A DNA stretch of 64,000 bases from Akanthomyces muscarius (lineage: Eukaryota; Ascomycota; Sordariomycetes; Hypocreales; Cordycipitaceae). The notes beneath the pieces were generated by a model. The model was given only the letters and a program-made list of their open reading frames with translations. It searched no databases and had not been told where the DNA came from. Within the stretch, counting starts at the first letter, position 1, and each line of letters opens with the position of its first letter. The stretch lies in assembly GCF_028009165.1 (NCBI RefSeq), contig NC_079242.1, positions 3,968,001 to 4,032,000 on the forward strand, in the 5' to 3' direction. A program made the position numbers and the translations under genes. Positions 1,407-44,411 of the stretch are shown here, piece after piece.

Positions 1407-3536
1407 AAGTTGGGTTCGGCTCGCGTTGGTAGTCTTTTGACCTGGGGCTATGTTTATACCATTTGGGCCACTTTGTTGGTTGGATGGTTGGGAATTCATG
1501 CGGTTCTTTGTTTTTGTTCTTTGGGTGGTAAAGCCTGATTTATCTGGGACACGTCTTTTTTTTTTGTTACTCTAAAACGGGCGGTTGGGGACTCTTGCTT
1601 TTTTCTGGGATATGTATGGCGCAAGTTATTTCGATGGGAGGTTACTGTTTTTCTTCTTTTTTTTTATTATGGACACGATGATGGACTGTACACTCAAGAA
1701 GGTCAACTGCAAATTTTGCTGGCGCTGCGCATTCTGGCGATCAAGAGCAAGAAAGCCAGGACGGCGCAAGGGACGGGACTATACTGGGATACCTGAGGGA
1801 GGCTTTTCGTTTTTTTCCTTATATCAGGAGTTGGTTGGCAATGATATCAATTCTTCTTCTTTCTTATCAAATATCGTATTTACATCTTTTTCTATTCCAA
1901 GGATTGACTTTATCCCATCCTTATCATCGACCAAAGATGCATGCTTGCGCGCTTCATCGGTGTTGGGTTGGCACTGAAACTACGGTTGACGACATGTCCA
2001 CAAGGGTGTCCTTGCGACTTCAACTTTGACCATCAGCACGGCGCAGTTTTGTTATTCTCTCCTTGAACAAGTCGAGCAACACCTGGTTCTGCACTCGAGG
2101 AGGAGTTGTCTCCCCCTCCTCCACTTCCCTCGTGGTATGACTCGTATGGATGCCATTCTAGATTATTTTATGTCCTTGGCGTCCGGCTAAAGAAAGGCAG
2201 CGGAAAGCAACGAGCAGCGGGCTACAGTCGGCCCCGTCCCTTCTCAATGCGGTATGCCGAAGATTCTTCTACCAGTAGACCTAGCTTCATGTAAGACGGG
2301 TTCATGTACGGCACTGCCGAAGCCAAATTGATGGCGGGGGGGAAATAGATGAATCGTGCAAAAAATGCCCACATGGCGGGCGGGCGGAGCATGCGTTTCT
2401 CCCAACATGCAATGTTACACAGTAGCTATAGCGTTGCTTTTGGCCCCCAAACTGGGGCTACGTCAAATCGGACCGCCTCTACGCACGTTGTCGTTCCAGT
2501 TCTTTTAATCAATCAGTACCTAGCCCACCTATATTCCCGATGCGATTATTATTATTGTTGTAATTATTTTTTCAACTTTTTTCTTTCGGTCCGCGTCGAT
2601 GCGCTGTGGTTTTGTTTCGTTTTTGGGATCAGGCCATTTGGCGATCTCGACCGCAAGCGGGATGAAATGGATAGAGTGGCCAACTGTGTTGGACGAATCG
2701 GAACGGGATTCAAGCTGCACGGCCAAAGTATGTCTGTACTTCTTTGGTCGAGACTATCCTAGCGATCTTACATTGCTGTCATGCTTGGCAATTATATTGA
2801 CAAGAAAAATATACGCTTGAATGCAGCGATGATTGGATACCTTGAGAGCTGCGATAACAGCAAAGACCTCCCTGCTGCACCCTCCTCGCTGCTTCTTTTG
2901 TATAAATCTGGCCATGGCTCGGTTGCCGTAGTTGAATTAGCTAGTGGGGCTTTAAAAAACCTACATGTGGTTTTCCCATCATCGATGACCTCGGGTGGTC
3001 CGATGGAAGCTCGGCTGGTGGAGCGAGCCCGCTGCCCATTGAGGCCCAGGAGCTCAGGGTGTTCGTGGGAGACCTTTGCGATGGCTCTCTCCTCCCAACA
3101 AGGTATCATAAAGGGTGCGGTGACTTCATCTCCATCGGCAAGGGTCTCTCAATCGATCATCCAGTTGCGAGGCCATATTCTACGTAATGAGTGGCCTGTA
3201 TCGGATGGGAGGCGCCAGTACTCATTCGCGGCGGGAAAATAGGAGAGGGAAAAATGGTGAGGGCAAGACTAAGAATAGATCAGGTAGGCATGAATCTGTA
3301 TTTTTTAGTATGATTAGTAGCTACCTGTTGGTAAATAGCTGCGTCCGGCTATGTATTAGTCGGTAGGCGGCAGATTGTCCGATGAACATGGGCGGATTGG
3401 TGGGGCGCGAGGCTACAGGAAAAAAGTTGCGACACCGCACCTCGATGGCCACCTCGCCAAGCTTCACCCACGACTCTGCTCGCTCGGGACACACAGCCGT
3501 CTCCTCCACACAATATAAATATATATATTGGGCGCC
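1407..3536. other. Intergenic region, 2.1 kb
   Basis: No convincing gene. It begins with the T-rich 3' flank of the upstream regulator gene (several runs of 7-9 T between 1555 and 1670). ORFs here are short, show no recognisable domain and often lack an ATG. An AT stretch (TATAAATATATATATT, 3514-3529) lies at the end, immediately before the next gene. Confidence 0.6.
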
Positions 3537-12774: not shown

Positions 12775-15700
12775 CAAGTCTCGCAAACATCTTCTGGACA
12801 ATATTGAAGAAGTGTTTTCAGCGTCTCCGCATCTCCATACCAAAAAAAATCTTTGAGCACATCCTGTGTTATATTTGCGCAAGGTGCGTCGAGCTCCTGC
12901 AAGGCGTTTCGCACAATTTGTCTGCTGTCTTGCTGCCGCAGAGCCGAAGGGAACAGTGGCGGCTCGAGGAGAATGCCTTGTCTCTTTTTCTCAACAATCA
13001 GCTGCAGTGCTCTGTTGCGGGTAGAATCGTGGCTCAGTAGGGTCTGCAACATGTCTTGGTTCAGAAATCTCTCGTCTTCCTGCTTCTCGTCCGGAAGCAA
13101 GTTAAACAGCAGTGCCGTAGCCTTCCTCCCGCAGTGAACAATAGTTTCGTTAGTCAATGCTTCTAGAACCTTGTCCGGCGTGCTTATGTCGACAAGCGTA
13201 GACACCAACGTGTAGAAGTGGTCTGCGAGTCCTTCTTTAGCAACGCTTTGAAGGACTGTGGTAGTGTTTTCGCAGTGTGATGTGAATCTCTGCAACGGTG
13301 ACGCTCCGTTCATCAACAGCAACGAGAGAACATCCTTATTATGGGTCATCGCAGCTGTCAGTAGCGGTGGTAACACTGCTGAAGAGCACACATTGGCATT
13401 GACATCAGCGCCTCTGGAGATGAGCAATTCTGCAACCACGTTCTCCCTGGCGTGAATCGATGCATTCAGCGCTGAGCCATACTTCGCACTGTACTCGTTT
13501 ACGTCAACAGCTTCATCGTCTAGCATTTTGCCAACAACAGTGGAAAGTCCGAGATAGGCAGCTACTGCTAGATCTGTCCAGCCAAAGAATGTCTGCTGGG
13601 CCCAGACCTGGCAGTATACCGCACCCCAGATTTTCAAAGGCTGTTCTGAGGTCTTGCAGAGACGGCGTGCCCTCTGCATCCAGCATTGCTTAGCAAAAGC
13701 ATATTGCCTCTCGAAATGTTTCGCCCAATGCCTTGCAGCATATTCCAGGAGTGGATATTCTCGGGTCGAAAGGAGCGGAAGAAGTCGTGATGCGAGCTCC
13801 GGAAGAAGAAGGTATTTTATGCAGCAGCCAGACATCAACGCATGAGAAAAACTAGCATCGGCGAAACGACCTCCCCACTTCGTGTCCGGCGAGCCTGGCT
13901 CAGTTTTCTGAACAAGGTATTCTTGCGCTGTCAAATGGATAAAAGACAGTCTATCGTCATAAATGCCGAGAATAAACCCGGAAAAGTTCTTGACAACTGT
14001 CCCGAAGCCAGTTTTCCAGCATCCTGCCTCCAACTCCGCATGTGTCTCGAAGCCATCATTTTCCAAAGCCAGCGTAAGCGCATAATTGGCCTCCTCCACG
14101 GATAACGGCTTAACTGCAGCGAGAACGATCCGAAGAAGGGTGCTTGTGATTCTTTCATTTGTAGTCTTGTTCAAAATCTTCTCATATGCGTCAGAAACTT
14201 GAGTTGGTACTTCAGCAAGTAGCGCGTCAACGTCACGTCGCCGGCTGTATTGGCTCGGATCTGTCTTCATAATGCGCATGGTCAGATGAAGCCACAAGTA
14301 AGTTTTTGTCCCCTTTGACTTGAGAGTATCCGCTATTTTCTCTCGGTCGGCATCATTGAACTCGCTTGCGAAGCTCTCCATCTCTACATCAATCACGAGG
14401 CCAATGTCATGGCTTATTTCTGTATGCCTTTCGTCGGCATCAAAGCGAAAGTACTCCGTTCGTTTTGACATTGGGCGGAAAGATCTCTCAACATCACCAT
14501 ACGCTCTGCTGGTAATCAGGAACTTGAGATTTGTCCTCGCAGCTGAAGGGCCATCGTCGTAGAAGCTGTCGAGCTTACGGATGAGCTGATCCCGATCTTG
14601 CTTGTTGCATTCGTCCAGGGCATCCAAAACGCAAATTATGTCGCCGCAAGTCGTTTTGTCCGCACAGGTGACTAGAGCGCCCCAGAGGTCTTCAAAGCCA
14701 ATAGTCAAGCTACCCCCGCTTCGTTCAAAAGCTGGCAGTGGATGCTCAATCAAGTCACTCGTAGATTCGTGGCAGAACAGTTGATGAAGAAGAGCGGATA
14801 AGGCAGTGGTTGTCTTGGCACGCTGCACATCGTCATCTTTGAAGAAGAAATAGCACACAGTGGCTACCGAGTTTGTGATTGTCGATGATCCAGTATTGAT
14901 AGTGGTGGTGGTGTTCTTTAAATATCCGTCTTTGATGAGAGTTCGCGCCAGCACGGATTTGCCGCATCCAGGGCCTGCTGTCAACCAGAAAACACCAGAG
15001 TCTGAAGCATCACGCCAAGTCGAAAAGGTTTCGTCCGCAAAGAACCACTCGCAGGTCCCTTTAACCGAATCGGGGTTAAATTCCATGCCACCCTTGTAAT
15101 TACCGGCAGCGGAGTGGAGCGCTCGTAGGAATTCCATCTCTGCATTCTTCTGTCTATCGTCCTTCATCGTCTTGAGGATGCTGTTCTCTGTGTTGCCGAT
15201 CTGCTCCAGCGTTTTGTTATGAGCAGCAAGGGTCTGCACCATCTCTTCGCGTTGCAAAGGCGCGATGTTTGCGACGCATCTGTCGCTGAGCTTGACAATA
15301 TGTGCTTCTTTGCCACTCCAATCACTGTCTCCAGCGACCTTTTGCCAGGCTCGCGAGAGCTTTTTCTCTGACAAGTGGCAAACCGCGCGCACTTGATACT
15401 CCAGCATGTAGGAGTAAACATTCGACAGTGGCTCAAGGAGAATTTTGTAGTGCTCTGATGAGATGGATCGCAGACACACATTTTCATAGTTTCTCCAGTA
15501 TACCTGAAGATCGCCAATAGTTGTAAAACCTTTGACCATGGCCACGTTGTTTGCAAATCCACCGCTCAGAAGCTAAGTAAACGTTAGACGATTAAAGGAA
15601 ACCAAGATCAGAAGCGACGTTGCGTGGAAAAGTTTCATACTGGGATAAATACTGAGACCGTTGACCAGGCGAGCGCTGCATATGGCTGCGAGCTCAGAGA

Positions 15701-43557: not shown

Positions 43558-43692
43558 GACACTTTGGCCGAGTGGTTAAGGCGGTGCCCTGCGTACGTAT
43601 ACACATTGACCGACTTCCAAAAACTCTTACGCTAACAGCCTCTCAGTAAGGCATTACGTTCGCGTGCGTAGGTTCGAATCCTGCAGGTGTCG
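43558..43692 (+). tRNA. tRNA-Ser(GCU) with a GT-AG intron inside the anticodon
   Basis: Acceptor stem GACACTT pairs with AGGTGTC and is followed by G73, the serine discriminator. The A box TGGCCGAGTGG (43565-43575), D arm, type II variable arm (ACG-TTCG-CGT) and T arm with B box GGTTCGAATCC are intact. The anticodon stem is GTGCC/GGCAT. The loop is split by 43593-43646 (54 nt), which begins GTACGTA and ends CTAACAGCCTCTCAG. Removing it gives the loop CTGCTAA with anticodon GCU. A cut at the usual 37/38 position would instead give anticodon GCG with U37. No bulge-helix-bulge is apparent. Mature length is 81 nt without CCA. Confidence 0.85.
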
Positions 43693-43697
43693 AGACC

Positions 43698-43706
43698 TTT
43701 TTTTTT
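43698..43706 (+). terminator. Pol III terminator of the plus-strand tRNA-Ser
   Basis: A run of nine T begins six bases after the discriminator of the tRNA gene, as expected for RNA polymerase III termination. Confidence 0.8.
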
Positions 43707-44268
43707 GCCCTCGTTCACTTTTGGCTTCCTTTTTTTTTTCAGTGATCTAAGAGATGCAAAGCTTTGAATGTAAGAGAGGCAGCTTCCACAGTTTCATTGT
43801 TCCAGCTAGAATGGCCTTACCCGGCATGCTTACACGGAGCTATTCACGTATGCTGGCCGCGCACGTCTTCACCAGCTGCGTGTTGCCCGGAACGTCGGCG
43901 CTACCCTGCACGGCTGACTGGTAATAGGCACTGGCGCAGGGCTGCGTCTAGCTAACATTTTTCTATGCTGTAATAGAAACCCGGATTTTTGTTTGGACAG
44001 CTGTTGAAATAGCATTTACTTATGAGATACTATGAAGACTGTAGTGCTCGTCGACATCGAACCCCCGTTTCTTATTGGTGCGAGGATTCACCTAGACGGG
44101 CCAACTAATAAACGTCCACGCGACCTGTACTTTTCTAATACGTGTGTAAAAGTAGGCGTCTCACAGCCTTGCTCATTACGAGCAGAAAAAAGGGACAGTC
44201 TATTATCGGAGTATCTGTAATACAAGGCAAAAAAAGAAGGTTTCCTATATGAAGTCGAAGGAAGAGGC

Positions 44269-44274
44269 AAAAAA
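44269..44274 (-). terminator. Pol III terminator of the minus-strand tRNA-Ser
   Basis: Six T on the minus strand, starting six bases beyond the discriminator of the second tRNA gene. Confidence 0.7.
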
Positions 44275-44279
44275 TAATC

Positions 44280-44411
44280 CGTCACCTGCAGGATTCGAAC
44301 CTACGCACGCGAACGTAATGCCTTACTGAGAGGCTGTTAGTGTTGAATGGCTGATGGAAGACTGGTGAGTACGTACGCAGGGCACCGCCTTAACCACTCG
44401 GCCAAAGTGAC
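44280..44411 (-). tRNA. tRNA-Ser(GCU), second copy, with a GT-AG intron inside the anticodon
   Basis: The mature part is nearly identical to the plus-strand copy. The acceptor is GTCACTT/AGGTGAC, so pair 2-71 is U-A where the other copy has A-U. This compensatory change argues that both are selected as functional tRNAs. G73, the A and B boxes, variable arm and T arm are intact. The anticodon is interrupted at 44376-44326 (51 nt) by a sequence beginning GTACGTA and ending CTAACAGCCTCTCAG, the same ends as in the other copy, while the middle of the insert is unrelated. Removal restores CTGCTAA with anticodon GCU. Convergent with the first copy. Confidence 0.85.

Follow-up and report, generated by a model that had tools for sequence, protein, structure and literature searches.

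Candidate spliceosomal introns in tRNA genes of the fungus Akanthomyces muscarius

At least 14 tRNA genes of Akanthomyces muscarius, from eight isoacceptor families, carry inserts of 51 to 60 nt that begin with GT and end with AG, and in nearly all of these CTAAC lies close to the end. The anatomy is best explained by functional tRNA genes that are transcribed by Pol III and contain true U2-type spliceosomal introns, and we consider it very probable that this is what these genes are. The splicing of tRNA and that of mRNA are taught as two distinct systems, a division that serine and tryptophan tRNAs with mRNA-type introns would break if this explanation is true.

Results

Two tRNA-Ser(GCU) genes are interrupted between nt 35 and 36

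The window, a stretch of 64,000 nt (NC_079242.1, positions 3,968,001 to 4,032,000), holds two tRNA-Ser(GCU) genes with the following features.

43558..43692, plus strand: tRNA-Ser(GCU) copy 1, 135 nt (81 nt once the insert is removed); cmscan RF00005 42.4 bits, ARAGORN Ser(gct)
43565..43576, plus strand: A box of copy 1, intact (tRNA nt 8-19), upstream of the insert
43593..43646, plus strand: GT-AG insert of copy 1, 54 nt, at tRNA nt 35/36; GTACGTA...CTAACAGCCTCTCAG
43632..43636, plus strand: branch-site-like CTAAC of copy 1; candidate branch A at 43635, with the last intron base 11 nt away
43671..43681, plus strand: B box of copy 1, GGTTCGAATCC, intact, downstream of the insert
43698..43706, plus strand: T9 run of copy 1, Pol III terminator-like, beginning 6 nt past the gene
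44269..44274, minus strand: T6 run of copy 2, Pol III terminator-like
44280..44411, minus strand: tRNA-Ser(GCU) copy 2, 132 nt; cmscan RF00005 42.4 bits, ARAGORN Ser(gct)
44291..44301, minus strand: B box of copy 2, GGTTCGAATCC
44326..44376, minus strand: GT-AG insert of copy 2, 51 nt, at tRNA nt 35/36
44336..44340, minus strand: branch-site-like CTAAC of copy 2; candidate branch A at 44337

The original prediction had described both genes as tRNA-Ser with G73, with inserts of 54 and 51 nt separating nt 35 from nt 36, and had proposed a covariance-model search. Rfam tRNA model RF00005 recovered each gene at the ends listed above with 42.4 bits, above its gathering score of 29, and ARAGORN, when introns were allowed, called both genes Ser(gct), with nt 35 (C35) followed by an insert of 54 nt in copy 1 and 51 nt in copy 2. 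G73 is present in these two as in all eight Ser genes found in the genome, and the description of the two genes was confirmed. Without introns, ARAGORN detected neither of the two unspliced genes; copy 1 minus its GT-AG insert was called Ser(gct) without an intron. The ends of the two inserts, GTACGTA and CTAACAGCCTCTCAG, are identical. As predicted, and as can be read from the sequence, removal of GT...AG from the Ser(GCU) genes gives the loop CTGCTAA with anticodon GCU. Removal at 37/38 was rejected, as it would leave anticodon GCG and U37. Elsewhere in the window, positions 12777-15545 of the minus strand encode a protein that combines NACHT/NPHP3_N with ankyrin repeats and belongs to the type known from NLR-like incompatibility genes of fungi.

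A DNA search of the genome with gene 1 returned three places, including a third Ser(GCU) copy (C6:1171262-1171393) with the same interruption at 35/36 and the same ends. The question whether an intron-less copy exists, raised with the original prediction, was addressed by DNA, joined-exon and pattern searches, which found no uninterrupted Ser(GCU) gene in the genome at the sensitivity used. Joined exons matched every Ser(GCU) copy as two halves meeting exactly at 35|36, none in one piece, and the pattern for an intact CTGCTAAG...GGTTCGA had no match in the genome. Relative to copies 1 and 3, copy 2 carries a compensatory change from A2-U71 to U2-A71 in the acceptor stem, which points to selection acting on the tRNA.

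The interiors of the inserts, defined as the insert minus its first 7 and last 16 nt, were set against random 30-mers (n = 300; mean identity 47%, maximum 62.5%). Alignment identity is 52% between copies 1 and 2, within the random range, and reaches at most 53% when copy 1 is compared with both other copies. Copies 3 and 2 are 83% identical, so not all Ser(GCU) interiors are unrelated. The proposal that the inserts are alike at their ends only consequently holds for copies 1 and 2 and fails for copies 2 and 3 set against each other.

Interrupted tRNA genes recur in eight isoacceptor families

In this genome of 36.2 Mb and 12 contigs, about 85 distinct tRNA genes were met by hand tally, 14 of them interrupted by GT-AG inserts; the survey being incomplete, these copy counts are lower bounds. 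The phenomenon had been set out for Ser(GCU) only. It holds there and reaches further, to 14 genes and eight isoacceptors, with inserts at four sites off 37/38, namely, the D-loop, 31/32, 35/36, and 47/48.

Ser(GCU), three genes: insert at 35/36
Thr(UGU), one gene: insert at 35/36
Arg(UCU), one gene: insert at 31/32, and a 37/38 intron
Trp(CCA), two genes in tandem (C3:3658226 and C3:3658477): insert in the variable loop at 47/48, and a 37/38 intron
Ser(AGA), three genes: insert in the D-loop
Ser(UGA), one gene: insert in the D-loop, and a 37/38 intron
Ser(CGA), one gene: insert in the D-loop, and a 37/38 intron
Leu(AAG), two genes on C6: insert in the D-loop, and a 37/38 intron

An ordinary 37/38 intron thus accompanies the GT-AG insert in seven of the 14 genes (both Trp, Arg(UCU), Ser(UGA), Ser(CGA), and both Leu(AAG)), so that one precursor would need both splicing systems. 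In the Trp pair, the 37/38 intron as placed would give an A31-C39 mismatch in the mature anticodon stem. A tRNA-like sequence of 133 nt at C6:2611203 (L181) has A and B boxes, a T run, and an acceptor stem and a T stem that pair well, and its long insert does not resemble a GT-AG intron.

Among the genes found, the interruption is present in all eight Ser genes, both Trp genes, and the single Arg(UCU) gene, and intact Ser, Trp, or Arg(UCU) copies were not found in the genome at the sensitivity used. These observations count against the view that the interrupted genes are pseudogenes or relics while intact copies elsewhere supply the tRNAs, which we regard as highly improbable. The view draws on the limited sensitivity of the copy searches (3, 7, and 10 candidates at first look), on the existence of three Leu(AAG) copies with an intact D-loop, and on the usual view that a gene with a short insertion in its D- or T-arm is a pseudogene when it is one of many synonymous genes (PMC4090602, in part). 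However, the pattern search for the intact Ser(GCU) loop yielded nothing, and the pattern for an intact Ser-type D-loop, GAGTGGTTAAKGNG, which an intact Ser D-loop of different sequence would escape, gave seven matches that comprise the three Ser(GCU) genes, three known Leu genes, and one non-tRNA place, and hence no further serine gene.

The Leu(AAG) genes without a D-loop insert are three tandem matches on C10 (691693, 691884, and 692079, about 190 nt apart), of which one copy was read and the other two are known as matches; they are relatives of the two interrupted genes on C6 and mark the junction there. Thr(UGU) likewise has an uninterrupted relative about 0.9 kb away, a contiguous Thr(CGU) gene that matches at 93% and marks the junction. 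With interrupted and intact relatives in one genome, intron gain would become open to study.

A pattern joining CTAAC, AG, and the B box occurred at 53 places versus 101 in a reversed control and thus without bulk enrichment; only places that fold as tRNA were used. The search for the B box GGTTCAA gave 55 places. With the known genes and one repeated site set aside, 43 were listed and seven were read, four being non-tRNA and three tRNAs (L210-L212), and two more places were explained by Pro matches. Because only part of these places was read, Phe, Ile, Asn, Val(AAC), and other tRNAs lie outside the genes seen. Exon patterns of the tRNAs had no matches in viral and genome contig collections, as expected since both collections are without fungi.

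A dispersed repeat (L126, L128, L133, and L134) combines an A-box-like TGGCCGAGTGG with the B box GGTTCGAATCC and is perhaps a tRNA-derived SINE; copy L134 displays, by eye, C-to-T and G-to-A differences, as from RIP. The 11-mer GGTTCGAATCC is also found near 9.4 kb on C1, C3, C4, C5, and C6, at a near-equal distance from five contig starts, where it probably belongs to a subtelomeric repeat.

Interrupted genes retain tRNA stems and Pol III signals

All 14 genes have a fully paired acceptor stem (7/7) and T-stem (5/5). In every case the A box precedes the insert and the B box follows it, and a run of at least five Ts begins no more than 21 nt past the gene end. The Leu A box reads through because the last base of its 12-nt stretch is the intron's own first G. 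Once both introns are taken out, the two Leu genes have identical mature sequences, as do the two Trp genes. In the stem of the variable arm, Ser(AGA) copy 3 (L211) differs from L127 by a compensatory change (GCG/CGC to GGG/CCC). Such complete stems, boxes, and T runs, together with the compensatory changes, are a further argument against pseudogenes.

After GT-AG removal and with 37/38 introns allowed, ARAGORN called the expected isotype for 13 of the 14 genes, and for the remaining one, Trp_2, once the 37/38 intron was removed as well. On the unspliced genes, the program called none of the 14 without introns; with introns allowed, the isotype was right for four, wrong for six, and missing for four. 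tRNA finders can therefore miss or misname such genes.

The Pol III signals also bear on whether these tRNAs are processed from longer transcripts of Pol II, with introns that only happen to overlap the tRNA. A Pol II origin would provide a cap and coupling to splicing. Against it, A and B boxes and a T run are laid out on the tRNA pattern in 14/14 genes, and we hold this origin to be extremely improbable. TTTT is found in none of the 14 inserts versus 2 of 18 mRNA introns, which is too slight a difference to carry weight.

The inserts carry the signals of mRNA introns

GT...AG stands at the tRNA-restoring junction in all 14 genes. The donor conforms to GTRNGT in 12 (the exceptions being GTTAGT in Thr and GTAAGC in Leu_2), the branch site is CTAAC or CTAAT in 13 (GTTAAC in Leu_2), and the acceptor is CAG or TAG in 12 (AAG in Thr and Leu_2). 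A group I/II or self-splicing origin was rejected, since inserts of 51 to 60 nt are far too short for a group I/II catalytic core. The distance from the branch A to the intron end is 10 to 12 nt in 14/14 tRNA inserts and 10 to 18 nt in 18 mRNA introns. The same ends had been said to occur in mRNA introns of this genome; the class GTRNGY, CTRAY, and YAG is indeed common to both groups, but the exact donor GTACGT occurs in only 1 of the 18 introns collected and the branch distances of mRNA introns spread further. For comparison, the published range for the branch site is 6 to 36 nt before AG (PMC5832005, in part).

The scoring matrix was built from these 18 mRNA introns: 17, taken from the window and from 3-kb loci, passed a GTRNGY...CTRAY...YAG filter, and the other, FAR11 intron 1, came from a protein alignment. 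As 17 of 18 training introns were picked by motif from 947 frame-consistent GT-AG candidates, mostly chance, the matrix is not a neutral sample. Protein evidence supports two of the 18 (FAR11 intron 1 and OPT). The matrix omits a second FAR11 junction, which lacks CTRAY. Over the aligned part, the FAR11 gene of this genome shares 92% identity with its Akanthomyces lecanii counterpart, and its OPT transporter is 93% identical to a Beauveria protein, which places the fungus in the Cordycipitaceae or near them.

The top-scoring GT-AG pair coincided with the tRNA-restoring junction in 14/14 genes, out of 2538 to 3294 possible pairs in each and with a tie with one other pair in the two Trp genes, when the branch-AG distance was held to 8-20 and the length to 45-80, limits that lie around the mRNA range and were set after unlimited scoring had been seen. 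Without the distance limit, the junction missed the first rank in 10 of the 12 genes scored, nine of them through a tie, to one decimal, with a pair that used a later AG; Leu_2 came fourth, with other pairs scoring above it. The inserts of 12 of the 14 genes score 20.4 to 22.6, compared to 17.9 to 23.6 for the mRNA introns, and Thr(UGU) (13.7) and Leu_2 (12.0) fall under all mRNA introns. When inserts of 12 genes were shuffled 20000 times with the junctions fixed, the observed score was never reached in 10 genes, once in Thr, and six times in Leu_2; for both window genes, 0 of 20000 shuffles reached the joint donor, branch, and acceptor score. Only 1 of 400 random 135-mers held any pair scoring at least 20.

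Conservation differs among families. In Trp and Ser(GCU), the first 7 intron nt are kept in full (7/7) and the last 16 nearly so (14-16/16). Beyond the motifs, the ends are not kept in Leu (4/7 and 5/16) or Ser(AGA) (5-10 of the last 16). Interiors are random-like within the Trp and Leu pairs (39-44%) and still related (61-90%) within Ser(AGA), between Ser(UGA) and Ser(CGA), and between Ser(GCU) copies 2 and 3. Preserved ends with a decayed interior are therefore a feature of the Ser(GCU) and Trp introns but are not general to all families. Ser(AGA) copy 2 (L146) and Trp copy 1 (L068), which are unrelated genes, have the last 15 intron nt in common, CTAACCCCATAACAG, either by chance under strong constraint or as a possible trace of intron transfer.

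Position and signals argue against Sen endonuclease introns

We also weighed whether the inserts are cut by the Sen endonuclease and sealed by ligase at non-canonical bulge-helix-bulge sites, as in Cyanidioschyzon merolae or Crenarchaeota. The many 37/38 introns of this genome make the Sen pathway itself likely, and non-canonical tRNA intron sites are known in C. merolae and, with an unknown route of removal, in nucleomorphs (PMC3978253 and PMC4090602, each in part). None of the 14 junctions lies at 37/38, and as a group they show the anticodon-intron helix of a bulge-helix-bulge no more than chance would give. Helix B averages 1.7 of 4 pairs over the 14 junctions, with 0 in all three Ser(GCU) genes, versus 2.2 for random sequence and 2.8 for 22 canonical controls (37/38 introns no longer than 50 nt, for which ARAGORN gave a position exactly after nt 37). 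The test discriminates only moderately, because canonical introns span 1 to 4 pairs and the groups overlap. Individual inserts do pair well: helix B has 4 pairs in Ser(AGA)_3 and 3 each in Ser(AGA)_2 and Leu_1.

Position and signals make the stronger argument. The eukaryotic enzyme is thought to find its splice sites by measuring from the tRNA body (PMC4090602 and PMC10539383, each in part), and Sen cutting leaves GT, CTAAC, and AG in the inserts unexplained, none of the 22 canonical introns both beginning with GT and ending with AG. An endonuclease acting at an unusual site, which the original prediction had kept as its alternative, is accordingly disfavoured, helix B being no better than random over the 14 junctions and complete in one, and we rate this route as improbable.

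Discussion

The anatomy of the genes, the agreement between the junction that restores the tRNA and the best-scoring GT-AG pair, and the recurrence in eight isoacceptors are all observed, and the same signature at four places of the cloverleaf in 14 genes gives strong support to spliceosomal removal, the main proposal of the original prediction. From these features we infer transcription, splicing by the spliceosome, a lariat, an order of steps, and a spliceosome requirement for the decoding of Ser and Trp. Pol III would read from the A and B boxes that flank the insert as far as the T run. The spliceosome would recognize a GTRNGT-like donor, CTAAC as branch site, and the AG that follows about 11 nt later. 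The insert would then leave as a lariat and the exons be joined, so that the Ser loop would be the normal CTGCTAA with anticodon GCU. Where a 37/38 intron is present (Trp, Arg(UCU), Ser(UGA), Ser(CGA), and Leu(AAG)), it would be removed separately by the Sen endonuclease and tRNA ligase.

These features suggest that the machine that splices mRNA may be needed to make essential tRNAs. We think it likely, on sequence grounds, that all Ser tRNAs and the only Trp tRNA are products of the spliceosome, that seven genes need both the spliceosome and Sen, and that this constitutes a further route of nuclear tRNA maturation, one that couples the supply of two amino acids to spliceosome activity and has arisen as introns were gained repeatedly, and only between the A box and the B box. 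Two questions would become testable, namely, whether the spliceosome can act on an uncapped Pol III transcript of about 130 nt that folds tightly as a cloverleaf and in which order two splicing systems act on one molecule. Debuchy and Brygoo (1985) reportedly described 'unexpected structural differences' in tRNA-Ser(UGA) genes of Podospora, which could be relevant to how old the Ser introns are.

Fungal U6 is itself a Pol III transcript, and given this precedent the original description of such introns as new for Pol III transcripts was too strong. U3 snoRNA and U6 snRNA were so far the only small structured RNAs known as often interrupted by introns (PMC5832005, 2017, in part; Canzler 2016, as cited there, for U6). 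In the open-access literature searched, no report of spliceosomal introns in tRNA genes was found, and a report elsewhere is possible; the parts of the Podospora and Aspergillus papers examined (PMC2441463 and PMC4065248) hold nothing on tRNA introns.

Like the inserts described here, the fungal U6 and U3 introns are short, of the GT-AG type with an RCTRAC branch, and occupy several sites in small structured noncoding RNAs (PMC5832005, in part). Unlike U6 and U3, the hosts here are tRNAs, with internal promoters and a second, dedicated 37/38 splicing system in the same molecule. The spliceosomal introns of ascomycete nuclear rDNA are likewise of the mRNA type in a non-mRNA gene, but in rRNA and not tRNA (PMC11782384, in part). 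Canonical Sen introns also interrupt nuclear tRNA genes, in the same genome and in 7 of the 14 same genes; in contrast to them, the inserts lie off 37/38, show helix B pairing not above chance as a group, and carry GT...AG and CTAAC within 51 to 60 nt. The tRNAs of C. merolae, nucleomorphs, and Crenarchaeota resemble those described here in having several introns per tRNA and sites away from 37/38, for example in the D-arm and anticodon arm, and C. merolae and nucleomorphs have been regarded as exceptions (PMC4090602, 2014, in part; see also PMC13149111, 2026, in part). However, C. merolae and archaeal introns are set by a bulge-helix-bulge and those of Guillardia nucleomorph tRNAs measure 3 to 24 nt (PMC3978253 and PMC4090602, each in part), whereas the inserts of A. 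muscarius are 51 to 60 nt long with mRNA-type signals. Both this type of intron and its presence in other small RNAs are thus known, and what appears to be new is the tRNA as its substrate and the maturation of one molecule by two systems.
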